Shown here one piece after another: positions 2,441-46,387 of a stretch of 46,387 nucleotides of DNA. How positions within the stretch are numbered: position 1 is the stretch's first letter; every line of letters starts with the position of its first letter. The DNA comes from Verrucomicrobiota bacterium (GTDB lineage: Bacteria > Verrucomicrobiota > Verrucomicrobiia > Limisphaerales > JACQFS01): NCBI GenBank assembly GCA_016199935.1, contig JACQFS010000018.1, positions 82,785 through 129,171 on the forward strand, in the 5' to 3' direction. The notes beneath the pieces are model-generated. The model had not been told where the DNA came from. It was given only the letters and a program-made list of their open reading frames with translations, and searched no databases. A program made the position numbers and the translations under genes.

Positions 2441-5400
2441 TCAGGCGTGCGCCACCGGCGGAGCCGATTTTTGCCCCTTGGCCGCGGCGGCAGAAGGTTC
2501 CTTCAACTCACCGAGCCGGACCAGTTCTTGCAGCCACGCGCGGACGCGCTCCGCGTTCACCGGCGCGCAGGTGAAGCCGGCACCCGCGATGGCCGCCTGC
2601 GTTTGGGTTGAATCCACGCGGCCGATTTCCTCCTGACTGCGCAAGGTTTCCGAGCCGACGTCCGGGATGAACATCAGATAGGGAAGCAACAGCCGGCTGG
2701 CCTGGTGGTCCGGGTTTTGGGCGATCGCCTTTTCCCATTCCTCACCGCTGACGAGGCGCACCGGATAGCCGGCGTCCGCCGCCATTTTCAAAATCTCCTG
2801 CAACGTCACGGGCTGCGGATTGACCAGATGGAACGCGCGTCCGGCGGCGTCGGGCCGGCGCGCGATGTGGACCATCGCCTGACTCGCGAAGTCCACCGGC
2901 GTGAGCATCAAGTCATGCCGCCCCTCGGGGCCGCATTTCAGTTCGAGACAGGTGTTCACCAAACGCCACACTCCGTCGTCGGGGCCGGACACGGTGTGGC
3001 CGCTGTCGCCGGGCATCAGGCCCGGGCGGAAAATGGTGACGGGCACGCCGCGCTGGCCGGCGAGTTGGAGGATTTTTTCGGCGACCCACCGGCTCTGCGC
3101 GTAACCGCCGAACAACCGCGCGCTGGCCGGCAACGGGTCCGTTTCAAGTGCCGAGCGTGCCCCGGCCGCGCTCACCGCGCTGAAGACCGCCAGCCCCGAG
3201 AGGTAATGCACCGGCTTGGTGCGGCCGGTCGACGCGAGGCGGATGACTTCGACCGTCGCACCCACGTTGGCCGCCTTGAGATCGGAGTAGCCCGCGATGT
3301 GGTTGACCTTTGCGCCGGTGTGGTAGATGGCGTCCACGGATTCCGCGAGCGCGGCGAATTCCTTTTCCTTGAGGCCGAACCGCGGCCGGCTCAGTTCGCC
3401 GAGCACCGGCGTGACGCGGCGTTCGAGGCCGGCGGTTTCCAGCCCGCGCTGCTTCAACGCGGCGCGCAATTGCGCCAGCGCCCGCTCGGCGCCGGCTTCG
3501 TTGATGAGGCAGAAAATTTTCGCCGACGTGTGGTCGAGCAGCGCGCGCAACAGATGCAGGTCGATATACTCGGCAGTGCCCGTCAGCAGCACGGCGCGCG
3601 GGTCCGTCACCTGCCAGCGCTCGACCGGCCGGCCGTCGAACTTGAGGTCGGCGGGCAGTTGCACCTCGGCCTCGATGGCCGGGTCGCGGTCGTCGGTGAG
3701 CACGAGCTTCTTGGCGTCGCCCGGCTTGCCGGCGTCGCCCGCCGCGCCGCCGCTGAGGCCGAGGGTTTCGAGCAGGCCGTGGGAAATCTTGGTGATGGTG
3801 GGCGTGCCCATCAGCTTGCCGGTGGGGATGCTCACGCCGAGCTGGCTCTCCAGCCGGTGCATCAGCTCCACGGCCATGAGCGAATCCATGCCCTGCTCGT
3901 TGAGCGGGCGGTCCAGGTCGAGCTTGGCGGGGGCGATGCGCAGCACGGCGGCGATCTGGGTGCGGAGAAAATCCTGCACGATGGCGAGCCGCTCGCCGGG
4001 CGGGACGGCGGCGAGGTTGGCGCGCAGGCGCTGGCCCTCGTCGCGCTGATTCATCTGCAACGCCTCGGTCGAGGTGAGCAGCGAGAAGCGCGGCGACTTG
4101 GCGAAGCGTCCCGGCATCTGCGCCCAGCGGCTCCAGTCCACGTTCCACACCGTCGTCTGCGTCGCCCCGGACATGAGCAGCAGGCCGAGCGCGTTGTGCG
4201 CGGCGCGGGTGGTCAGGCCCTCGAGGCCCATGCGGCGGAAATGCTGCGCCAGGCGCGCCTCGCGCGCGACGATGCCGACCTCGGCGAGCAGGCCCCAGTT
4301 GACGGCGAGCGCGGGCAGGCCGAGCCGGCGGCGCTCGTGGGCGAGCGCATCGAGGAACGCGTTGGCCGCGCAGTAATTCGCCTGGCCCGGATTGCCGAAG
4401 GTCGAGCTGGACGAGGAGAACAGCACGAAAAACTGGAGCGGAATTTTTTGCGTGAGCCGGTGGAGATTCCACGCGCCCTCGACCTTGGGTGCCATCACCT
4501 TGTGGAAACGCTCGGGAGTGAGCTGCGGGATCAGCGCATCATCGAGCACCATGGCGGAGTGGATCACGCCCCGGAGCGGCGGCATTTTCGCCGCGATGCG
4601 GGCGAGGAGTTTGGCGACATCGGCTTCGTTCGCGGCGTCGCATTTCGCGAGCACGATCTCCGCGCCGGCGGCGGCCATTTTTTCCAGCGACGCGCGCGTG
4701 CCCTCGGAGGGTTCGGCGCGGCGGCTGGCGAGCACGAGGTGCTTCGCGCCGTTGGCCACCATCCACTCGGCGGTCGCGAGGCCGAAGCCGCCCAAGCCGC
4801 CGGTGATGAGATACGTGGCGTCGGCGGCGAAGCTGGTCGGGACGCTCTTCGGCGGTTCCTCCAACGGCACGGCGTCGGCGTGCATCGAGAGGACGATCTT
4901 GCCGATCTGCCGCGCCTGCGTCATGTAGCGGAACGCGTTGACGGCGTCGCTGAGCAGGAACACGCGGTGGGGCAGCGGCGGCAGTTCGCTGTTGGCGAAC
5001 TGGCGCTTGAGGCCGGCGAGGAAACCGCCGATCGAGCCCGGCTCCATCGCCTTGCTCAGGTCAATGGCGAAGTAGGAGAGGTTGTTCTTGAACGGCCGCA
5101 GGCCGATGCGGGTGTTGCTGTAAATGTCGCGCTTGCCGATCTCGAGGAAACGCCCGTGCGGCCCGAGCACGGCGAGGCTCTTGGCGATGGCCTCGCCGGC
5201 GAGCGAGTTCAACACGAGATCCACGCCGCTGCCGCCGGTCACGTCGAGGATTTCGTCGGCGAACGCCAGCGTGCGCGAGTCGAACACGTGCCGCACACCG
5301 AGCGTGCGCAGGAACGCCCGCTTCTCCGGGCTGCCCGCCGTGGCGAACACCTCCGCCCCCGCCGCGAGCGCGAGCCGCACCGCCGCGAGGCCCACGCCGC

Positions 5401-8400
5401 CGGTCGCCGCGTGGATCAAAACTTTTTCCCCCGCCCGCATCCCGCCCAGGTGCTTGAGCGCGTAGTGCGCGGTCATGTAGGCCACGAGCATCGTCGCGGC
5501 CTCCTCGTAGGAAAGGTGCGCGGGCTTGGCCAGCACGAATTCCGCGGGCATCGTCAGGTGCGAGGCGAAACAGCCCGCGCCCAGCGTCATCACGCCGTCG
5601 CCGGGCTTGAACTCGGTCACGCCCTCGCCCACGCGCACGACGCGGCCGGCGCATTCATCACCCAGCAGCATCGCGTCGCCGGCCTCGGAGGGATAGATGC
5701 CCAGCGCCTTCATCACGTCGCGGAAATTCAGGCCGGCCGCGTGGACCTCGATCTCCACCTCGCCGGGACCGGGCGCGAGACGTTCGAGCGGGCGGAACAC
5801 GACGTTGTCGAGCGCGCCGGGCCGGGGCACCTCGAGCCGGCAGGCCGTCTGGGTCAGCGGGACGCGTGGTTTCAGCGCGTGCCGCAAACGCTCGGGCCGG
5901 TGTTCGAGCCGTTGCACATAGCGCGCCTCGCCGCGCAGCGCGATTTCCTCCTCGGCATCGCCGGCGAGCACTTCGGCCGCGAGCGCGTCGAGCTCCACCG
6001 CGGCGGGCGCCGGGCTGAGGTCCACGAGCCGCACGCGCACGTGCGGCAGCTCGTTGATGAGCGTGCGGCCCAAACCGATGAGCGGGGCCTGCGTCACCGA
6101 AATGGATTTGATCGCGAGCCCGACCGGCTGCGCGGACTGCGTCACGAGCCAGAGCGCGGGCGGTTCATCCGTGAGTTCGGCGAGCGCCTGGGCGAGATGG
6201 AGCGTGCTGTGGCAGACGAGTGCCTCGGCCCCGGGCAGTTGGGCGGTGGTGACGGAATTGCCGGGCGCATCGAGACTCCACGCATGCACGACGCCGCGGC
6301 ATTTCGGCCGGCCCGCGAGCGCGGCGAACAACTGCTGGAGATCACCGGGCTGCGTGGTGCCGACGGTGAACTCGTCGTCGCGCACCCGCCGGAAGCCGTC
6401 GCCGGGCTGGACGAACACGCACGACTGCCCGTGCGCGGCGAGCCGCCGGCCGAGTTCGCGCGCGACGCCGCCGTGGTCCTCGAACAGCACCCATGTGCCG
6501 GCCGCGGCCGGTTCGGTGGAGTGGCCGTTCTTGCCGTTGCGCTTGCCGGGGTCGGCCGTGGCGCGCGCGAGCACGAGGATTTGCTGCTCCTCGCCCGCTT
6601 CCGATTCGGCGATGACGGCCGTGTTTTGAAATCCGGTCTCCTTCAGGATCGCCTGCCAGCGCTGGCGATCGATGAGCGGGTAGTCCGGTCGCAGATCGTG
6701 GTCGCGGAACTTCCACCAGCCGTCGGTCAGGCCGAAGGTCAGGTCGGCGCCGCGCGGCGCGGTCTCGAACTCGATGAACAGCAGCAGGCCGCCGGGCGCG
6801 AGCAGCTCGTGCGAACGGCGCAGCGACTCGCGCAGATCGGCGGTCGCGTGAAACACGTCGCTCGCCACCACCACGTCGAAGCTGTGCGGGGAAAAATTCT
6901 GCTCCGCCAGCCCGCGCTCGAGGTCGAGCGTCTCGTATTTCACGAACGGAAACTCGCGGAACCGCTGCTCGGCGCGGTTGAAGAACGCCTTCGAGAGATC
7001 CGTGAACACATACTCCGTCTGCGTGGGCGGGAGCACGGACAGGAGGTTGGCGGTCAGGCCGCCGGTGCCGGCGCCGAGTTCGAGGATGCGCAACGGCCGG
7101 CCTTCCGGCAGCCGCGCGGCGATGGTCGCGAGCGCGAGGCAGGCGAGCAGGTTCGGCCCGCGGAAGAACCGCGAGTTGGAATAAAAATGATCCAGCGTGT
7201 TGAACGAACCCTCCGGCACCAGGAGATGCAACGGGTCGCGCTCGCCGCGCAGTACCGCGGCCAGCTCGCGCCCGCAGCGGTCAATCAGCGAGAGATCCGG
7301 CAGGGACCCCGGCGAGCGGCTCAGGATTTCCCGCCAGCGCCGGTCCATCTCGGCGTCATCCGCCGGCGGCGCGGGCGGCGCGGGCGTGGCCGCCGCGCGG
7401 GACCGGGCGCCGGGCAGCGCGAAGCCGCGCTCCTTGAGCCGCGCGCGCAGGATCGCCTCCGTGTCCTCCGTCACGGGCGGAGCCGGCGCGGGCGCGGAAA
7501 TTTTTTCTTCAAACCACGGCGCGCGTCGCACCTCCCACTGGTTGGCGGTGCGGCGCTTGAGCCAGCCGTCCTCGGCGAGCATGGCCAGCAGGCGCGGGAA
7601 CAGGCGCGCGTGTTTCTCCGCGATGCGGAGGCGCGTGAGGAGTTGCGCGGTGGTGGCGCGTTCGCCCACGGCGGGATGCCAGCCGAGGCGGCCGAACGCG
7701 CGGCGGATGTAGGTGGCGTTGAGCGCGTTGGTGGCCGGCAGCAGCTCGAGGTAACGCGCCCGCCCGTTGAATTCCTTTTCCCCCTCGTCGAGGGCGTGGC
7801 GCAGTTGCGCGGCCAGCGTGCGGAGGTCCGGCAGAAACGTCGCCGGCCCGCTCGCGAGCGCGCGGCCGGGCAGACGTTGAAGGCGCCAGTCCGGTTCGTA
7901 GAGCAAATCCTCGGTCGCGCTGCGCGTCGAGGTGCCCGTGCCTTCGACGGCCTGGCTGCGCATCCCGCGGAGCTCGGCCACCAGCCGCCCGGCGTCGTCC
8001 GTGATGAACAGGTCGAACACGACGGCGTGCGGCCCGCGTTCCACGAGCCGGGTGTGCGTCCACAGATGGCCGGTGACCGGCGCGAACAGCCGGAGCCGTT
8101 CGAGGTGCACGGGCAGGAACAGCCGGCCTTCGGTGGCGGCGACCTGTTGCAGCAGCGCGGCGGCCGTGACCTGGAGGCAGGAGTCCAGGAGGGCGGGATG
8201 AAAGGCGCAACGGGACAGCTCGCGGTCCAGTTTCTCCGGCAGCGCAATTTCACCGACGGATTCGTCGTTGCCCAGCCACACGCGCTGCACGCCCTGGAAC
8301 AGCGGCCCGAAGAACAGGCCGAAGGCCTGCATCCGCTCGTAAAATTCCGCGCCCGTGAGCTGGGCCGGGCAGCGCGCCATCACGGCCTCGCGCGCTTCGA

Positions 8401-11400
8401 TCGCCGACGGCGGGCGGTGGCCCAGCGGCCGGTGCTTGCCGGCCGCGTTGAGGCTCCACGCGCTCGTGTTGCCGCCGATGCGGCTGTGGATGCGGAAGGA
8501 ATTGTCCGCGTCGTCGTGCGTGGTCTGGATGATCGGTGATTCCTCGCCGGCCGGAATGAACAGCGGCTTGCTGAACTCCACATCCTCGAGTTGCAGCGGC
8601 ACGTCGCCGTGCAATTCGCGCGCGGTGCTCAGGCCCAGGTCGAGATAACCCGCCGCCGGGAAAACCATGTGGCCCTGCACGCGATGGTCGTTCAGCCAAC
8701 TGGTGAGCCGCCGGTCCAGTTCCGACAGCCACGCCATTTCCGGCAGCCGCATGCGCCGCGCCATCAGCGGATGCAGCGACGGAGTCAGGCGCATGTCGCG
8801 CGCGGCCTCCGGCTCGTGCCAGTAACGCTCGCGCTGCCACGCGTAGCCGGGCACGGGGACAAATTTTGCCGCCGCCGGAAACACCGCGCGCCACTCCGGC
8901 TCGAAGCCGAGCGTGTGCAGCGCGCCCAGCGAGCCGAGCATGGTCACGCGCTCGGGCGTCTGCCGGCGCAGCGACGGCAGCACCGTGCCCGGGCGCGCCT
9001 TGGCCGCGAGACATTCGCCGACGGAAGGGGAGAGCACCGGGTGCGCGGCGAGTTCGAGGAACTGCCCGTGCCCCGCCTCGATGAGGCGCGCGGTCGCGGC
9101 GGCGAAGCGCACGGTCTGGCGGACGTTCTGCCACCAGTAATCCGGCCCGAGCTCGGTGCCGGTCGCGAGGTTGCCGGTGATCGTCGAGTAGAAAGGCAGC
9201 TTCGACTTTTGCGCGCGCAACCCCTTGAGCGCCGCGAGCAACTCGCCACGCACCGGGTCCATGTGCGCGCTGTGGAACGCGTAGTTCACCGGCACCATGC
9301 GCACGAACACCTCGGCGGCCTCCAATTTTTTGAAAAGCTCGCCGACCGCGTCCGCATCGCCGGAAATGGAAACGGAGCCGGGGCTGTTGACCGCCGCGAG
9401 CGAGAGCCGCTCGCCGTAGGGGGCAATGCGCTGGCGCGCGTCGTCCTCGCTGAGATTCGCCGCGAGCATCGTGCCGCGCAACGGCGCGTGCTCCATGCAG
9501 CGGCCGCGGTGGTAGATGACGCGCATCGCGTCGCGCAAACTGAAAATCCCCGCCACGTGCGCCGCCGCGACCTCGCCGACGCTGTGACCCACGACGGCCG
9601 CGGGCCGGATGCCCCACGACTCCCACAGTGCGGCCAGCGCGATCTGAAACGCGCAGATCGCCGGCTGCGCGATCTCGGTCTCGTTCATCCGCGATTTTTT
9701 TTCCTTCGCGAGCAATTCCTCCACGAGCGACCAGCTCCCGAGGCTGCGCACCACCGCGTCGCACTCCTCGAGCTTCGCGCGGAAGACCGGCTCGTGATTC
9801 CAAAGTTCGCGGCCCATCGCCCACCACTGCGGGCCCTGGCCGCTGAAGACAAACGCCAGCTTGCGGTCCTCGGCGTGCTGGCCGGTGACGAGTGTCGGGG
9901 AGGGCTCGCCCTTCGCGAACGCGCCGAGTTGCTCGGCCAGCTCCGCCGGTGTCGCGCCTACGACGGCGAGCCGGTGCTCCAAGGGCGTGCGGCGGGTCGC
10001 GGCGGTGAAGCAAACGTCGGTCAACGCGTCCGGGGCGCTTGGCAGATGGTCGCGCCACTTTTCCGCCGCGGCCTTGAGCGCGGCCTCGCTCTTGGCGGAG
10101 AGCACGAGCAGTTGCGGCGCGGGCGTCGCGCCATTGGCGGGGGCGGAAATTTTTTTGCCGTGACCGTTGCCATTGAAGCTGGCGGGAATGTTCACCGGCT
10201 TGCCCTCGCGCGGACGGGCGCGGCCGAGCGTGTCGTTCACGTCCTCGAGCACGGCGTGCGCGTTGGTGCCGCCGAAGCCGAAGGAGTTCACGCCCGCGAG
10301 CCGGCGGCCCGGCCCGTAAGGCTCGGCCTGCGTCGGCACGCGCAGCCGCAGCGCCTCGAAATCAATGTTCGGATTCGGCGTGAGGAAATGGAGGTTCGGC
10401 GGAATCACGCCGCGATGCAGCGTGAGCGCGGCCTTGATGATGCCCGCGATGCCCGCGCCGGCCTCGAGATGGCCGATGTTTGTCTTCACCGAGCCGAGCC
10501 GGCAGAAATTTCCGCGCGCGCGGCCCGCGCCGAGCACGGTGCCCAGCGCCGCGGCCTCGATCGGATCGCCCACGGACGTGCCGGTGCCGTGCGCCTCCAT
10601 GAACTGGATCGCCGCCGGGCTCAGGCCGGCCTCGGCGCAGGCGCGGCGCACGAGCGCCTCTTGCGAACTCTGGCTCGGCACGGTCATGCCGGAGGTGCGG
10701 CCGTCCTGGTTCACGGCGGTGCCGCGGATGACGGCATAGACGCGGTCGCCGGCCGCGAGCGCGGCGGAGAGCGGCTTGATTAAAATTGCCCCGACGCCCT
10801 CGCCGCGGACGAAGCCATTCGCGCGCGCGTCGAAGGCCTGGCAGCGGCCGGTGGGCGAGAGCATGTTCATCGCGCAGAACGCCAGGTAGGGCATCGGCGT
10901 GAGGATGGCGTTGACGCCGGCGGCGAGCGCGCGGTCGCACTCGCCGTTCCACAACGCGCGGCAGGCGTTGTGCACGGCCACGAGCGCGGAGGAGCAGGCC
11001 GTGTCCACGATGAAGCTCGGGCCCGTGAAATTGAAACAGTAGGAGATGCGGTTGGCCGCAATGCTCATCGTCGTCCCGGTCGCGGTGTAGGGACTCAGGT
11101 CGTTGCGGTCCGCGCCGGCGGTCTGGATTTGGGAATAGTCGGTGGTGGAGATGCCGACGAACACACCGGTGGCCGAGGGGCGGGCGGGGAGGATTTTTTC
11201 ACCGGCGTCTTCGAGCGCCTCCCAGGCGGCCTCGAGCAGGAGGCGCTGTTGCGGGTCCACCCGCGGAGCCTCGTGCGGCGACATGCCGAAGGGTTGGATG
11301 TCGAAATGATCGACGCGTTCGATGAACGCACCCCAGCGGGCGTAGGTCTTGCCGGACTTGCCCGGTTCCGGATCAAAATACGCCTCGACGTTCCAGCGGT

Positions 11401-11545
11401 CGGCGGGCACGTCCGTCACGGCGTCCACCCCCTGGACCATCATCTTCCAGTAATTGTCCGGCCCGTGCGAGCCGCCGGGCAGGCGGCAGCCGATGCCGAC
11501 AATCGCGAGCGGTTCGAGTGACTTGTTGTTCGACTTCTTAATCAT
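2441..11545 (-). CDS. Highly reducing type I polyketide synthase with C-methyltransferase and terminal reductase domain
   Basis: 3034 residues from the ATG at 11545 (MIKKSNN), chosen because the ketosynthase begins directly after it; the open frame runs 41 codons further without family-like sequence. Domains: KS 11-436 (Cys184, His319, His359 present); AT about 562-850 (GHSVGE 653-658, YAFH 755-758, malonyl-like); DH about 923-1200 (His954, Asp1121); C-methyltransferase about 1440-1650 (LELGAGTGG 1488-1496); structural KR 1683-1880; ER about 1908-2222 (NADPH loop near 2045-2055); KR 2243-2470 (LDD 2334-2336, Tyr2391); ACP with Ser2555; reductase-like domain 2650-3010. All chain-building domains look active, so repeated use should give a saturated methyl-branched chain. 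The reductase has altered motifs (TGTAEYID at 2655-2662, YAQSR at 2815-2819). The product would reach the AlkB-like enzyme encoded next. No phosphopantetheinyl transferase is nearby. Confidence 0.95.
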   Translation of the reverse strand: MIKKSNNKSLEPLAIVGIGCRLPGGSHGPDNYWKMMVQGVDAVTDVPADRWNVEAYFDPEPGKSGKTYARWGAFIERVDHFDIQPFGMSPHEAPRVDPQQRLLLEAAWEALEDAGEKILPARPSATGVFVGISTTDYSQIQTAGADRNDLSPYTATGTTMSIAANRISYCFNFTGPSFIVDTACSSALVAVHNACRALWNGECDRALAAGVNAILTPMPYLAFCAMNMLSPTGRCQAFDARANGFVRGEGVGAILIKPLSAALAAGDRVYAVIRGTAVNQDGRTSGMTVPSQSSQEALVRRACAEAGLSPAAIQFMEAHGTGTSVGDPIEAAALGTVLGAGRARGNFCRLGSVKTNIGHLEAGAGIAGIIKAALTLHRGVIPPNLHFLTPNPNIDFEALRLRVPTQAEPYGPGRRLAGVNSFGFGGTNAHAVLEDVNDTLGRARPREGKPVNIPASFNGNGHGKKISAPANGATPAPQLLVLSAKSEAALKAAAEKWRDHLPSAPDALTDVCFTAATRRTPLEHRLAVVGATPAELAEQLGAFAKGEPSPTLVTGQHAEDRKLAFVFSGQGPQWWAMGRELWNHEPVFRAKLEECDAVVRSLGSWSLVEELLAKEKKSRMNETEIAQPAICAFQIALAALWESWGIRPAAVVGHSVGEVAAAHVAGIFSLRDAMRVIYHRGRCMEHAPLRGTMLAANLSEDDARQRIAPYGERLSLAAVNSPGSVSISGDADAVGELFKKLEAAEVFVRMVPVNYAFHSAHMDPVRGELLAALKGLRAQKSKLPFYSTITGNLATGTELGPDYWWQNVRQTVRFAAATARLIEAGHGQFLELAAHPVLSPSVGECLAAKARPGTVLPSLRRQTPERVTMLGSLGALHTLGFEPEWRAVFPAAAKFVPVPGYAWQRERYWHEPEAARDMRLTPSLHPLMARRMRLPEMAWLSELDRRLTSWLNDHRVQGHMVFPAAGYLDLGLSTARELHGDVPLQLEDVEFSKPLFIPAGEESPIIQTTHDDADNSFRIHSRIGGNTSAWSLNAAGKHRPLGHRPPSAIEAREAVMARCPAQLTGAEFYERMQAFGLFFGPLFQGVQRVWLGNDESVGEIALPEKLDRELSRCAFHPALLDSCLQVTAAALLQQVAATEGRLFLPVHLERLRLFAPVTGHLWTHTRLVERGPHAVVFDLFITDDAGRLVAELRGMRSQAVEGTGTSTRSATEDLLYEPDWRLQRLPGRALASGPATFLPDLRTLAAQLRHALDEGEKEFNGRARYLELLPATNALNATYIRRAFGRLGWHPAVGERATTAQLLTRLRIAEKHARLFPRLLAMLAEDGWLKRRTANQWEVRRAPWFEEKISAPAPAPPVTEDTEAILRARLKERGFALPGARSRAAATPAPPAPPADDAEMDRRWREILSRSPGSLPDLSLIDRCGRELAAVLRGERDPLHLLVPEGSFNTLDHFYSNSRFFRGPNLLACLALATIAARLPEGRPLRILELGAGTGGLTANLLSVLPPTQTEYVFTDLSKAFFNRAEQRFREFPFVKYETLDLERGLAEQNFSPHSFDVVVASDVFHATADLRESLRRSHELLAPGGLLLFIEFETAPRGADLTFGLTDGWWKFRDHDLRPDYPLIDRQRWQAILKETGFQNTAVIAESEAGEEQQILVLARATADPGKRNGKNGHSTEPAAAGTWVLFEDHGGVARELGRRLAAHGQSCVFVQPGDGFRRVRDDEFTVGTTQPGDLQQLFAALAGRPKCRGVVHAWSLDAPGNSVTTAQLPGAEALVCHSTLHLAQALAELTDEPPALWLVTQSAQPVGLAIKSISVTQAPLIGLGRTLINELPHVRVRLVDLSPAPAAVELDALAAEVLAGDAEEEIALRGEARYVQRLEHRPERLRHALKPRVPLTQTACRLEVPRPGALDNVVFRPLERLAPGPGEVEIEVHAAGLNFRDVMKALGIYPSEAGDAMLLGDECAGRVVRVGEGVTEFKPGDGVMTLGAGCFASHLTMPAEFVLAKPAHLSYEEAATMLVAYMTAHYALKHLGGMRAGEKVLIHAATGGVGLAAVRLALAAGAEVFATAGSPEKRAFLRTLGVRHVFDSRTLAFADEILDVTGGSGVDLVLNSLAGEAIAKSLAVLGPHGRFLEIGKRDIYSNTRIGLRPFKNNLSYFAIDLSKAMEPGSIGGFLAGLKRQFANSELPPLPHRVFLLSDAVNAFRYMTQARQIGKIVLSMHADAVPLEEPPKSVPTSFAADATYLITGGLGGFGLATAEWMVANGAKHLVLASRRAEPSEGTRASLEKMAAAGAEIVLAKCDAANEADVAKLLARIAAKMPPLRGVIHSAMVLDDALIPQLTPERFHKVMAPKVEGAWNLHRLTQKIPLQFFVLFSSSSSTFGNPGQANYCAANAFLDALAHERRRLGLPALAVNWGLLAEVGIVAREARLAQHFRRMGLEGLTTRAAHNALGLLLMSGATQTTVWNVDWSRWAQMPGRFAKSPRFSLLTSTEALQMNQRDEGQRLRANLAAVPPGERLAIVQDFLRTQIAAVLRIAPAKLDLDRPLNEQGMDSLMAVELMHRLESQLGVSIPTGKLMGTPTITKISHGLLETLGLSGGAAGDAGKPGDAKKLVLTDDRDPAIEAEVQLPADLKFDGRPVERWQVTDPRAVLLTGTAEYIDLHLLRALLDHTSAKIFCLINEAGAERALAQLRAALKQRGLETAGLERRVTPVLGELSRPRFGLKEKEFAALAESVDAIYHTGAKVNHIAGYSDLKAANVGATVEVIRLASTGRTKPVHYLSGLAVFSAVSAAGARSALETDPLPASARLFGGYAQSRWVAEKILQLAGQRGVPVTIFRPGLMPGDSGHTVSGPDDGVWRLVNTCLELKCGPEGRHDLMLTPVDFASQAMVHIARRPDAAGRAFHLVNPQPVTLQEILKMAADAGYPVRLVSGEEWEKAIAQNPDHQASRLLLPYLMFIPDVGSETLRSQEEIGRVDSTQTQAAIAGAGFTCAPVNAERVRAWLQELVRLGELKEPSAAAAKGQKSAPPVAHA

Positions 11546-11755
11546 GCATCCAACTTCACCGGCCGCGGCCGATGGCCGCATTACGATGCGGTGACGAACG
11601 ATTTCACGCCGCGCCAGCTTGCAGCAAGCAAACTTTGCAGCCGGCGGGGCGCAGTTTTGCGAAGCCATCGGTTCGGTTCGGGGTGCGGTGCTTGACGATG
11701 CGGGAGGCGGTGGCTACTTTGCGCCGCCAATTTACAAAAAACACCGCACCACCTT
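11546..11755. promoter_or_regulatory. Divergent PKS/clpP intergenic region
   Basis: 210 bp separating the minus-strand PKS gene from plus-strand clpP. A good clpP promoter is visible (separate entry). On the PKS side I see no convincing promoter and no clear Shine-Dalgarno before the ATG. No small gene is supported here. Confidence 0.5.
11692..11720 (+). promoter_or_regulatory. Sigma-70-type promoter for clpP-clpX
   Basis: TTGACG at 11692-11697 and TACTTT at 11715-11720, separated by exactly 17 bp. This predicts a transcription start near 11727 and a leader of roughly 28 bases before the clpP ATG. No Shine-Dalgarno is evident. Confidence 0.65.
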
Positions 11756-19747: not shown

Positions 19748-20368
19748 TCACTTCTTTTCTTCCGGGTAGAGTTCCTTCTCAAGGTAAGGTGTGCCCCAAA
19801 TCGCGTCTTTATTCGTGACCCCCTTCTCTTTCACTTCACGCATGATGTCCGATATCTCATCCCGCTTCACGGTAATAATAAAACCATCCGTAACGCTGTG
19901 AACAAAATGGAATTCGACCAAATTCCCATCAAGTTTGGGATACACAATACTCGATACTTTCAACAGTTCTGTAAAATCTTCTCCCGCCTGCTTCGACCAT
20001 CTCCACAAAACCTCGTTCGTGATGTCCAGTGGAAGTTCGGGGCCCTTCGCCACAAAAAGACGTGCTTCACTGAACAAGTCGCCATCTCGGTTCCTTTTTC
20101 CAGAAGCCGTATTCGCAACAAAAATGACCTTGTCTTCTATTATGAGCGTCTTCATGCCATACAACGACGGCCAAATCTGCGTCGGCTTTTCTCCTGCCTT
20201 ATGATGCTGCAGAGCGGTTCGCAGGGTCATTGGTGCGCCGATGGAAGTGCGAGTATAATTCAACTCTTCAAAGCCAGCGCCTAAGGGCACAACATCTCTA
20301 CTGCCGCATCCCGCCGCAAAGCAGCAGAACACAATTGCACCCGTTGTCCGCAGCAGATGTTCAGTCAT
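19748..20368 (-). CDS. Putative lipoprotein of unknown function, AT-richer than its neighbours
   Basis: 206 residues from the ATG at 20368, chosen because a lipoprotein signal follows at once (hydrophobic stretch ending in FAAGC). The mature part is mixed alpha/beta without a domain I recognise. Base composition and codon use are visibly less GC-rich than the flanking genes (many AAA, ATT and TTT codons), which suggests recent acquisition. It lies between the ppk duplication and a palindromic element, inside an accessory patch. Function unknown. Confidence 0.65.
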   Translation of the reverse strand: MTEHLLRTTGAIVFCCFAAGCGSRDVVPLGAGFEELNYTRTSIGAPMTLRTALQHHKAGEKPTQIWPSLYGMKTLIIEDKVIFVANTASGKRNRDGDLFSEARLFVAKGPELPLDITNEVLWRWSKQAGEDFTELLKVSSIVYPKLDGNLVEFHFVHSVTDGFIITVKRDEISDIMREVKEKGVTNKDAIWGTPYLEKELYPEEKK

Positions 20369-20458
20369 TTTCAACGCCTGAGTAAAGCAGCGTATCCCGC
20401 TGTTTGAAAGCGTCGAATCCACCGCTTTCCGGTTCCATAAACGCAAACGGGGTCCTTG

Positions 20459-20671: not shown

Positions 20672-20944
20672 TTTAGGAAATCAATTCCTTGCGCAAGGAA
20701 GCCGGCTCCGTAGGCAAGGAATCCCGTTCCGTAGGCAAGGAAGTCCATTCCGTGTGCAAGGAAATCCCTTCCGTGTGCAAGGACGCGCGTTCCGTGCGCA
20801 AGGAATTCGCCGTCGTGAGCACGGAAGCCCGCACCTTGCGCGCGCCGGATGGAATCGTGCGCAGGCCGGACCATTCCGTGTGCAAGGAACGCGCGGGCGT
20901 GCGCTGGGTTTTGGCCGTCGTGCGCAAGGAAGCGGCGAACGTGC
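20672..20944. repeat. 21-bp periodic array 1 (13 imperfect units)
   Basis: Thirteen units of exactly 21 bp without indels. The core is GCAAGGAA, five variable bases, TTCCGTG. Units at 20693-20797 are well conserved; those from about 20798 are more diverged but keep the phase. There are no spacers, so it is not CRISPR. Frames stay open through it on both strands because 21 is a multiple of three. It lies in the 722-bp gene-free stretch 20369-21091. Confidence 0.9.
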
Positions 20945-22811: not shown

Positions 22812-22825
22812 AAAGTTAGTTCCTA

Positions 22826-22854
22826 GGGTTCAGGTTTCAGGTGTCGGGTTTCGG
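22826..22854. repeat. Short heptad run upstream of fba
   Basis: A run of about four 7-mers (GGTTCA, GGTTTCA, GGTGTCG, GGTTTCG) just upstream of the fba start. No partner arm is seen, unlike the other microrepeat loci. Confidence 0.55.
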
Positions 22855-22928
22855 CGGCCACGAAGGGCTGCCATCTCAAACGCGGGCGGAGAATAAAGCG
22901 GCGGGGGGGAAAGGGAAGCGGGATTTTC

Positions 22929-23021
22929 AAAGCTCCAAATTCCAAGCTCCAAGCCCCAGAGAAGCACCGGATTCCAATACCCAATGACAGGTCGCGCGTT
23001 GGAGCTTGAGCCTTGGAGCTT
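22929..23021. repeat. Heptad-based inverted repeat (AGCTCCA family)
   Basis: Arms at 22930-22952 and 22999-23021: two 9-bp perfect blocks (AAGCTCCAA) separated by 5 mostly mismatched bases. The left arm reads as 7-mers AGCTCCA, AATTCCA, AGCTCCA, AGCCCCA. It sits between two genes on the same strand. Confidence 0.75.
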
Positions 23022-28280: not shown

Positions 28281-28376
28281 GAATGACGAATGACGAATGA
28301 CGAATTGAAAACCTCATCGTCCCTGCCGGCGCGGTGCAACTGGCGAATTCCATTCGTCATTCGTCATTCGTCATTC
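28281..28376. repeat. Heptad-based inverted repeat (ATTCGTC family)
   Basis: Perfect 25-bp arms, 28281-28305 and 28352-28376, each built of three and a half copies of a 7-mer (GAATGAC / ATTCGTC). It starts 5 bp after the proC stop and ends 12 bp before the next start codon on the same strand. Confidence 0.9.
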
Positions 28377-28387
28377 GCCATTTGAAC

Positions 28388-29722: not shown

Positions 29723-30097
29723 TCACCGCTTCGTCCGGAAATCCAGCCGCGCGAAACCGTAATCCACCACCCCGGGCTCCGGCCGGAACGCCTCCGGGAT
29801 GTAATAGCACGTGAACCGCGTGTCCGGTTCCCAGTCGCGCGCGGCCACCGCGCCCGTGGCGAGGAGGAGGCGCAGGTGTTTGGCCACCGTGTCGAAATGC
29901 GCGTCCATCTGCCGCGCCAGCTTCTGCGGATAGACCACCTCGCCCTCGGCCATCAACTGCAACGCGCGCCACCGCACCGGCTGGCCGAGCGCGGCAAACA
30001 CCGACACGGGGTCCAACGTCGGCTTGGCGGGAACCGGCGCGGCGGCGGCAATGACCGCCGGGCCGGGCTGGGAGGAGGAAGCATCGGTGGGATTCAT
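29723..30097 (-). CDS. ArsR-type winged-helix transcriptional regulator
   Basis: 124 residues from the ATG at 30097; a TTG 12 codons upstream is possible. After a disordered Ala/Pro-rich start (1-30), the winged helix-turn-helix begins at LGQPVRWRALQLM, with recognition helix around MDAHFDTVAKHLRLLL. No obvious metal-binding cysteine motif, so the inducer is unknown. Upstream lies the second 21-bp array, which would include its promoter. Confidence 0.75.
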   Translation of the reverse strand: MNPTDASSSQPGPAVIAAAAPVPAKPTLDPVSVFAALGQPVRWRALQLMAEGEVVYPQKLARQMDAHFDTVAKHLRLLLATGAVAARDWEPDTRFTCYYIPEAFRPEPGVVDYGFARLDFRTKR

Positions 30098-30137
30098 TGG
30101 GCCAACTTTTCGCTCCGACAAACTGCCTGACAAGTCA

Positions 30138-30480
30138 AATGTAATAGCTTTTAGTCCGGCATCATCTACTTTTTAAGTCAGTGCGGCAGCTTTTTGACTA
30201 GATGTAATAGCTTTTGGTCTGACAACTGCCGTTGCAGTGGCATAAAAAGGTGTTTCAGTCAGGAAAAAAGCCATTGCAGCGACCGAAGAAGCCGTTGCAG
30301 TCATGGAAAAAGCCGGTTCGGTGTGACAAGGAGCCGTTACAGTATGGCAAGAAGCCGATGCAGCAGGTGGCAAAGGCATTTCAACCATCAAAGGAGTCGT
30401 TTCAGCGGCCAAAGAAGTTGTTTCAAATCATTGGACAGACGTTGCCGTATTGTCTCCGGGGATTTCATTGGCACCGGAGG
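30138..30480. repeat. 21-bp periodic array 2 (about 16 imperfect units)
   Basis: Best units lie between 30232 and 30430: GTTGCAG, about 8 variable bases, then AAGCC, repeating every 21 bp without indels. Left of this (30138-30225) a related phase carries GTAATAGCTTTT at 30140 and 30203. The region is more AT-rich than its surroundings and fills the gap 30098-30519 between the ArsR-like and HAD genes. Its sequence is unrelated to array 1. Confidence 0.8.
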
Positions 30481-34368: not shown

Positions 34369-34424
34369 CGGCGGGGACCATGAACGGAACGCCCGGCGAT
34401 GTCAAAAACCCGAAGTTCGAAATC

Positions 34425-34530
34425 CGAAATCCGAAACAAATCCCACTTTCAAAATCCGAATGCTCCAAACGGCGCGGCCCGCGGATTCAGTCCCTGCCCG
34501 TTCCGTCATTTGAATTTGTTTCGGATTTCG
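34425..34530. repeat. Heptad-based inverted repeat (TCCGAAA family)
   Basis: Perfect 17-bp arms, 34425-34441 and 34514-34530. The left side reads TTCGAAA, TCCGAAA, TCCGAAA, CAAATCC, with further half-copies outside the perfect stem. It lies in the 187-bp gap between the PepSY-type and LysM genes. Confidence 0.85.
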
Positions 34531-34555
34531 AGCTTTGGATTTCGGATTTAATTCT

Positions 34556-35288: not shown

Positions 35289-35390
35289 GCATTTATGATT
35301 TACGATTTACGATTCTTGATTTGAGCCGCCGCTGAAGCGATGGCGCTTCCCTCCGCCAATCGTAAATCATCAATCGTAAATCATAAATGC
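35289..35390. repeat. Heptad-based inverted repeat (ATTTACG family)
   Basis: Perfect 19-bp arms, 35289-35307 and 35372-35390; 7-mers ATTTATG, ATTTACG, ATTTACG, ATTCTTG. It lies between two divergent genes, so it cannot be a terminator for either. Confidence 0.85.
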
Positions 35391-41120: not shown

Positions 41121-41242
41121 AGGTTATCAGGTTATCAGGTTATCAGGTTATCAGGTTATCAGGTTGCAGGTGGCTGCGACGTTCCCTGATGTCATTCGGC
41201 ACCTGAAAACTTGAAAACTTGATAACCTGAAAATCTGCAACT
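41121..41242. repeat. Octamer-based inverted repeat (AGGTTATC family)
   Basis: Five exact tandem copies of AGGTTATC (41121-41160) plus a variant, facing TGAAAACT-type 8-mers and TGATAACCT (41203-41241) on the right. Perfect pairing is limited to 9-bp blocks. Between two convergent genes. Confidence 0.8.
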
Positions 41243-43798: not shown

Positions 43799-45208
43799 AT
43801 GCTCCGCCGCCAGCGCCAGATCCGCACCACGGTGCACCAGATTGCCGACACGGCCATCTTCGGCCTGTCGCTCTGGCTCGCGCACGCGGTGCGGGTGGCC
43901 TCGGGCGACTGGGGCTTTTGGAACTGGCTGGGGGCCACGGCGGACATCGAGCCGTTCACCGATTTCGTGAAGCTCTACTTCGTGATCCTGCCGTTCGTGC
44001 CGTTCCTGCTCGACTGGCAGGGCTTCTACAACCGCCCGCTCGTCCCCTCGCGCCGGCAGACGGCGTGGCAGTTGCTCGGTGCCTGCACGCTCGCGACCGT
44101 CGGCATCATCCTCATGATGTTCTTTTTCAAAATCACGCTGGCCCGCTCGGTGGTGATCTTCTTCGGCGTGATCAGTTTTGTGCTGGTGATGCTCAAGGAG
44201 CTGCTCGTGCGCGCGTGGGTCCTCTCCAAGCTGGGCATCGAGCAGTTGCGCCACCGCATCATCCTCGTCGGCACGCGCGAGGACAACGACCGCCTCCGCG
44301 CCGAACTTTCCGCGCGCGCCGCGCACGATCTGGAAATCCTCGGCGAGCTGGACATCAACGACGCCTCCGGCGACCAGCTCACGGCGCTGCTGCACCAGCA
44401 CTCGGTCAACGGCGTGATCCTCTCCGCCAAGCACACGCTCTTCGGGCAGATCGAGCGCGCCATCGAGGTGTGCGAACGCGAGGGCGTCGAGGTGTGGCTG
44501 CTCGCGGATTTTTTCAAGACGCAGATTTCGCGCACGTCGCTCGACGAATTTTTCGGCCGGCCGATGCTCGTCTTCCGCAGCGTGCCGGATGTGTCGTGGC
44601 AGCATTTTGCCAAGGGCGTGCTCGACCGGCTGGGCGCGCTGGTGTTGCTGCTGCTGCTGACGGTCATCCCGGTGCTGCCGCTGGCCGCGCTGTTCACCTG
44701 GCTGACCTCGCGCGGGCCGGTGCTGTTCCGCCAGCAGCGCAGCGGGATCAACGGCCGGCCGTTCACGATGCTCAAGTTCCGCACCATGGTCACCAACGCC
44801 GAGCAGTTGAAACTCGAACTCGAACAGCTCAACGAGATGAGCGGCCCCGTCTTCAAGATCACCAACGACCCGCGCATCACGGCCGTCGGCCGGTGGCTGC
44901 GGCGCTACAGCATTGATGAGCTGCCCCAGCTTTGGAATGTCCTGCGCGGCGAGATGAGCCTCGTCGGCCCGCGCCCGCTGCCGGTGGACGAGGTCGCGCG
45001 CTTCGATGATCCGTCCGACCGCCGGCGCCTCAGCGTCAAGCCCGGCCTCACCTGCCTCTGGCAGATCAGCGGGCGCAACGAGGTCACCAGTTTCAAGGAA
45101 TGGGTCCGGCTCGACCTCGAATACATTGACCACTGGTCTTTGTGGCTCGACATCAAGATTCTCCTGCGCACCATTCCGGCGGTGTTCATGGGGACGGGGG
45201 CGAAGTGA
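43799..45208 (+). CDS. Polyprenyl glycosylphosphotransferase (initiating sugar transferase)
   Basis: 469 residues. An N-terminal part with about four to five membrane helices and a CoA-binding-like segment (RIILVGTRED), then from about 273 a bacterial sugar transferase domain (WcaJ/PssY type): one hydrophobic helix, KFRTMV, DELPQLWNVLRGEMSLVGPRP and SVKPGLTCLWQISGRN. It loads the first sugar phosphate on undecaprenyl phosphate to begin exopolysaccharide repeat synthesis at the inner membrane. Situated 108 bp after EpsI, it completes a typical exosortase/EPS arrangement. Confidence 0.93.
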   Translation: MLRRQRQIRTTVHQIADTAIFGLSLWLAHAVRVASGDWGFWNWLGATADIEPFTDFVKLYFVILPFVPFLLDWQGFYNRPLVPSRRQTAWQLLGACTLATVGIILMMFFFKITLARSVVIFFGVISFVLVMLKELLVRAWVLSKLGIEQLRHRIILVGTREDNDRLRAELSARAAHDLEILGELDINDASGDQLTALLHQHSVNGVILSAKHTLFGQIERAIEVCEREGVEVWLLADFFKTQISRTSLDEFFGRPMLVFRSVPDVSWQHFAKGVLDRLGALVLLLLLTVIPVLPLAALFTWLTSRGPVLFRQQRSGINGRPFTMLKFRTMVTNAEQLKLELEQLNEMSGPVFKITNDPRITAVGRWLRRYSIDELPQLWNVLRGEMSLVGPRPLPVDEVARFDDPSDRRRLSVKPGLTCLWQISGRNEVTSFKEWVRLDLEYIDHWSLWLDIKILLRTIPAVFMGTGAK

Positions 45209-45218
45209 GCCGTCCCGC

Positions 45219-45271
45219 TTACGCATTACTCCTTGCTCGTTATGAATAATGAGTGAGGAGTAATCCGTAAT
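45219..45271. repeat. Inverted repeat, TTACTCC heptad family
   Basis: 25-bp arms (45219-45243 with 45247-45271) with four mismatches and a 3-base loop, containing ATTACTCCTTGCTC and GAGGAGTAATCCGTAA. Fourth member of the family seen at 0.4, 30.98 and 32.1 kb. Confidence 0.8.
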
Positions 45272-45319
45272 TGATGTCCGCCCGGCATCCCGTTTGCTCC
45301 CTCGCACGCCTTGTTAAAA

Positions 45320-46309
<990 letters not shown>

Positions 46310-46324
46310 GCGAGCATCCCTACC

Positions 46325-46387
46325 GGCCCCGGAACCGTTCCCCACGTCGCCGGAACCGTTCCCCACGTCGCCGGAACCGTTCCCCAC
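46325..46387. repeat. 21-bp periodic array 3 (cut by window end)
   Basis: Nearly three units of exactly 21 bp in perfect repeat: CGGAACCGTTCCCC followed by ACGTCGC. It begins about 15 bases after the UDP-glucuronate decarboxylase stop and continues past the window edge. Each unit contains the palindrome GGAACCGTTCC. Confidence 0.9.

Follow-up and report, generated by a model that had tools for sequence, protein, structure and literature searches.

Quasi-palindromic 21-bp tandem arrays in intergenic DNA of a Verrucomicrobiota genome and before one gene family in its relatives: candidate DNA-level control elements

The stretch of 46,387 nucleotides analysed here (the window), from a Pedosphaera-like Verrucomicrobiota genome, ends in a tandem array of 21-bp units, array 3, which belongs to a class of intergenic arrays. 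The arrays have a 21-bp step and a palindromic form in common but no sequence. The class combines an unusually tight period and a symmetric unit with a near-fixed place before one undescribed gene family, here called P234, and this architecture is kept across the order while the repeat sequence is not. Because arrays stand before P234 in dozens of relatives, they look more like a DNA element with a role in control than like random junk, and they are tentatively explained as DNA-level, helically phased arrays of putative dyad sites that would control the adjacent gene.

Results

Array 3 and the contig junction

Tandem Repeats Finder returned for array 3 (Table 1) a period of 21, 2.8 copies, 100% match and 0% indel, and 38 of 38 comparisons at lag 21 inside the array were identical. 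Every unit carries the 11-bp palindrome GGAACCGTTCC. The right edge of the window is also the end of contig C256, at which the array is cut. When all 260 contigs of the genome (5.0 Mb) were searched for the doubled unit, it was found only at the end of C256 and at the start of C257, where unrelated sequence (AACGACAGAACGATGCTCGG) sets in after 2.5 units. Therefore, the assembly broke inside the array, and since the units run in the same direction on both ends, C257 was read as the continuation of C256; we infer from the shared units that the two contigs would join through array 3. Their ends have a 32-bp suffix and prefix in common, and the array has about 3.8 units if this overlap is true and more otherwise, the break in the assembly suggesting the latter. 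The initial annotation had proposed to extend the contig to the right and to count the units; followed in this way, the array goes on at C257:1-52 and ends there, with at least about 3.8 units. The complementarity of its outer flanks was noticed post hoc and is a weak observation.

Table 1. Coordinates of the arrays of the window and of their neighbours
Feature	Coordinates	Strand	Description
Array 3	46329..46387	.	2.8 perfect units CCGGAACCGTTCCCCACGTCG, 59 bases, up to the contig end; continued on C257:1-52
Outer flanks of array 3	46311..46318 and C257:63-70	.	8-bp inverted repeat, CGAGCATC and GATGCTCG
NAD-dependent epimerase/dehydratase gene	45311..46309	+	Array 3 begins 19 bp past the stop codon
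Bacterial sugar transferase gene	43799..45208	+	5' of the epimerase gene
Array 1	20675-20805	.	Diverged 21-bp array, consensus GcGCAAGGAAgcCcgtTCCGT, with a tail of degenerate units that reaches about 20933; unit dyad p = 0.002
Lipoprotein-like ORF	19748-20446	-	Array 1 on its 5' side
Array 2	30228..30425	.	Diverged 21-bp array, consensus GTTgCAGtgagggAAgAAGcC, 5' of the winged-helix gene
Winged-helix (HTH_20/HTH_29-like) gene	29723..30133	-	Array 2 on its 5' side

The best named relatives of the epimerase come from Pedosphaera and Verrucomicrobia subdivision 3 metagenome-assembled genomes (MAGs), the closest of them with protein identities of 76-81%. At the start of C257 lies a secreted alpha/beta-hydrolase gene, about 185 bp past the array if the contigs are joined, and array 3 probably lies between the epimerase and hydrolase genes. 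Neither a P234 gene nor a collagen-like locus stands beside it, adjacency to P234 or collagen-like loci being the mark of a subset and not of the whole class. In the MAG RYN_621, a period-42 array (L066:7847-8210) lies between homologues of the sugar transferase and the epimerase that precede array 3.

A collection of 84,980 species, which may lack near-identical genomes, gave no match to the exact unit of array 3, and this unit is private to its own locus within the genome and the order searched. Diverged 21-bp arrays with its GGAACCGTTCC core are present in G248, a genome from another family of the order; besides these and the own genome, a search for this core in 320 genomes of the order returned about as many matches as a reversed-pattern control. 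The dyad of array 3 scored p = 0.40 against column-permuted units, a test to which identical units give no power, and by chance a palindrome with 5-bp arms is expected somewhere in a few per cent of 21-bp units.

Arrays with a 21-bp step across the genome

The period was scanned in 1.0 Mb of the genome, where a place was a 42-bp stretch matching itself at a given lag and a simple codon-usage gene call separated intergenic from genic places. Between genes, 23 places were detected at lag 21, 16 at lag 42 and 12 at lag 63, with none at lags 19, 20, 22 and 23 and one each at 18, 24 and 27, so that the 21-bp period is far above chance. Inside genes, similar counts at lags 18, 21 and 24 (10, 9 and 11), as expected from coding repeats, were obtained. 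The sole other intergenic peak was that of heptamers (21 places at lag 7 and 8 at lag 14).

The arrays reach about 20 units, which are 20-40% different and yet mostly remain in register. Nearly every array has its own unit, and among the arrays found in the genome there are only two clear unit-family pairs, C54 with C84/C31 and the array at 58 kb of C256 with C58. The arrays of C84 and C31, each at a contig end and turned towards the other, are perhaps a single array; within the order, their unit family was found in the own genome only. One sequence common to all arrays was rejected on an all-against-all comparison of profiles, by which only C54 and C84 were clearly related. Fresh arrays of identical units are array 3, the end of C84 and C328 of genome G071, and 3 of the 96 contig ends inspected lie inside fresh 21-bp arrays, which indicates that array growth is occasional. 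Some arrays, as in C83 and L075, are convergent.

Array 3 agrees with this class in its 21-bp step, its place between genes, its palindromic core and its freshness, and it is a young member whose units are still identical. The initial annotation had described three intergenic arrays with the same period within 46 kb, and arrays 1, 2 and 3 were confirmed as 21-bp arrays; fresh arrays (array 3 and C84) do coexist with diverged ones, and the GGAA...TTCC motif reported for arrays 1 and 3 is present in both. Its view of the three as one element at different ages was not supported, as the units of arrays 1 and 3 are unrelated and their best match is not significant. The unit dyad of array 2 was not significant against column-permuted units. 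The same annotation had taken the lack of anything similar elsewhere in the genome as an argument against its proposal and had called for a genome-wide search: the 21-bp class does recur throughout the genome, and the exact unit of array 3 does not.

The P234 family and the position of the arrays

P234 was reached through the genes that flank arrays, with a 239-residue protein as reference (L024:402-1118, minus strand). It matched no model in Pfam, PHROGs or NCBIfam, and none was present in phage records. The AlphaFold2 model (mean pLDDT 91.9, pTM 0.62) consists of helices followed by a beta sandwich. No fold match reached E<=0.001, but most of the best ones were to FnIII-type domains, so that the predicted protein combines helices with a fibronectin-III-like domain. 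The own genome contains 8 matches to the family, and 39 of the 313 genomes searched in the order have at least one.

Linkage was defined as a 21-, 42- or 63-bp array at <=700 bp from the end of the P234 gene and was counted only at loci with enough sequence. An array was found in the 5' flank at 39 of 43 loci and in the 3' flank at 0 of 45. For random genes, the corresponding 5' counts were 5 of 596 in the own genome and, in stretches taken at random from relatives, 0 of 445. The Fisher p for the 5' linkage was ~3e-52 against the own genome and ~5e-47 against the relatives, with loci that are related and not independent. Inheritance of one copy fails to explain the linkage, because the arrays differ in sequence. 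Among random genes of the own genome, arrays at <=700 bp were more frequent on the 3' side (15/626) than on the 5' side (5/596), in gene calls that miss small genes.

At the 43 loci, lag 21 was detected in 35 and lag 42 in 34, and other lags that are not multiples of 21 in at most 3. Identity within the 39 linked arrays was 0.61 at lag 21, 0.65 at lag 42 and 0.60 at lag 63, compared to off-period values of 0.29-0.31 at lags 20, 22 and 24 and 0.24 at lag 7. Lag 42 was above both lag 21 (p=3e-4) and lag 63 (p=0.002); therefore, the units tend to alternate. A self-complementary unit was present at p<=0.05 in 28 of 38 P234-linked arrays (combined p ~3e-29) and at p<=0.014 in 7 of 15 arrays of a separate first set, both against column-permuted units, and most units of the class are quasi-palindromic. 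By eye, the low coordinate was below 700 in 14 of about 52 plus-strand and 4 of about 45 minus-strand P234 matches in relatives; there, contigs break frequently 5' of P234, as if fresh arrays interrupted the assembly.

Other genes were also found beside arrays. Collagen-like matches adjoin the P234 genes of C188 and C177, a related collagen end adjoins that of C2, and the collagen-like loci on C12, C185, C168, C149, C212 and C238 have 21- or 42-bp arrays on the 5' side. The winged-helix gene has a single other match in the genome, at C255:2971-3294, and a 21-bp array lies 5' of this one too; 12 of the 20 genomes with this gene also have P234, compared to about 2.5 expected without regard to phylogeny. 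Array-adjacent genes at L053:1-450 (minus), L024, L278, L279 and L280 show a tryptophan-rich start (PWDLGAWDSGATWDG, LWNQANWNSGSLWGP, NWDTGTWDSGFWDS) before a helical part; this start may be a tag for sorting or binding. The genes whose 5' ends face the C54 array and that at 58 kb of C256, L150:4160-4744 and L007:17548-17964, are of the SUFU and SMI1/KNR4 (SUKH) families, which are common among immunity proteins of polymorphic toxins.

Discussion

A proposed control element acting as DNA and its rivals

A DNA-level explanation is favoured, with less than even confidence, by the absence of both a sense-strand RNA signature and a codon-position signature. The array would act as double-stranded DNA in which dyads every 21 bp, that is, every two helical turns, come to lie on the same face of the helix, so that a putative dimeric or cruciform-recognising DNA-binding protein could assemble along it and control the neighbouring gene. 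Slippage or unequal exchange would shift the number of units in whole turns, by which the phasing would be kept and expression tuned. Provided that the contigs are joined, array 3 would control the secreted hydrolase gene with which C257 begins. Against this explanation stand the 3' excess among random genes of the own genome, the convergent arrays and the location of array 3 away from P234; nor does it account for the stop-free frames of the P234 arrays described below.

The main rival, somewhat unlikely in our judgement, is that the arrays are neutral minisatellites. Hairpins of short palindromes on the lagging strand would make the polymerase slip, and any palindrome that happens to be present could give rise to a new array, with no need of a function. 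Units that differ between loci, the existence of fresh identical arrays and an only occasional growth, as judged from contig ends, all agree with such an origin, and the two-unit superperiod is typical of unequal exchange. Neutral growth leaves unexplained the dominance of the 21-bp step, with 18, 20, 22 and 24 bp nearly absent outside genes. On the matter of position it would have the arrays mark loose, recombination-prone intergenic DNA, a proposal that we consider similarly doubtful and that does not explain why they lie 5' of P234 at 39 of 43 loci and 3' at 0 of 45 across many families of the order.

As nearly every array has a different unit, a single regulator that reads all of them is unlikely, which also weighs against the favoured explanation. 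The private palindromic arrays might instead be locus-specific addresses, one for each paralogous surface-type gene, with matching DNA-binding partners or a recombination or copying machinery as the readers; such a machinery would keep generating new palindromic arrays of the same step. This possibility is rated as rather unlikely.

Translation of the repeats, in which 21 bp would be seven codons and the arrays small genes or gene parts encoding heptapeptide repeats, is improbable. A step that is a multiple of 3 and the kept register agree with it, as does a stop-free sense frame in 39 of 39 P234 arrays compared to 31+-2.3 in column-permuted versions; on the antisense strand, the 29 stop-free arrays match the 28 of the null. 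However, the differences between units of P234-linked arrays showed no 3-base phase and hence no third-position excess (0.184 compared to 0.180+-0.013 when permuted), and in a first test of 11 arrays only one had a synonymous excess (p=0.01, the others 0.13-0.99). The open frame of the array has no fixed relation to that of P234 (23, 24 and 27 cases in frames 0, 1 and 2), no common start or end of the open frames was seen in the P234-linked arrays, and most arrays of the own genome fail codon-usage gene calling.

There is also little chance of a transcribed structural RNA, be it consecutive hairpins in the leader of the gene that follows or a small RNA from one strand. Compared to dinucleotide shuffles, most arrays do show much stronger folding (z often -3 to -8), and single arrays (C2 and C252) contain some compensatory changes. 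However, folding is equally strong on both strands (z -4.1 and -4.4, p=0.21), which any palindromic array has to show, the dyads of the sense strand have no more G:T mismatches (274) than A:C (345) and so leave no signature of an RNA hairpin, the window has no Rfam match at the gathering score, and the 59-base part of array 3 folds no better than shuffles (z -0.75).

Comparison with known repeats

Promoter VNTRs of adhesin genes, such as the 7-bp repeats upstream of the Haemophilus hmw genes, resemble the 21-bp arrays as tandem arrays 5' of surface-type genes whose unit number could tune expression, whereas the units of the 21-bp arrays are longer, palindromic, different at each locus and strongly diverged yet in register. 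In plasmid iterons and parS-like clusters, direct repeats lie about two helical turns apart, a spacing suited to protein binding on one face. Iterons and phased operators are thus alike in spacing to the 21-bp arrays, but the latter are many and different in one genome, do not share units and had no linked replication or partition gene that could be seen.

REP/BIME elements (GTAG- or CGTC-tagged; PMC3733652) are likewise small palindromes in intergenic DNA. In contrast to a REP family, with one sequence at many loci, nearly every 21-bp array has a private unit repeated head-to-tail up to about 20 times, and array 3 is not one palindrome dispersed at many loci. TIGR-Tas systems (PMC12045711) also place a tandem array beside one gene family, but P234 has no Pfam match and no Nop-type protein among the best 50 fold matches listed, and the 21-bp step shows no evident spacer/repeat organisation.

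Heptamers were the most abundant intergenic tandem repeats of bacteria in the SPADE survey, which called their function unclear (PMC6344855). Such repeats, e.g. the cyanobacterial STRR, share with the 21-bp arrays an intergenic place, an array-specific sequence and a fixed odd period, whereas the 21-bp arrays carry no 7-bp trace, as judged from the lag-7 identity of the P234-linked ones, and are quasi-palindromic and linked to a gene family. No description of intergenic 21-bp arrays in bacteria or Verrucomicrobia was found in titles or abstracts, a coverage outside which most subscription papers fall.

Heptamer-type direct repeats, many of them intergenic, are also present in the window, at 45225-45262, 448-480, 22825-22958, 28281-28382, 34406-34549 and 35291-35388, and one of them has a long inverted symmetry, ATTACTCCT...AGGAGTAAT. 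The window further contains a perfect octamer array of 5.6 copies (AGGTTATC, 41121-41165) and an ORF of 3075 codons at 2441-11668 (minus). Intergenic arrays of period 41 were observed at L047:12936-13258 and L159:9319-9515, one of them with the unit CCATCCGGACGACCGGATG...
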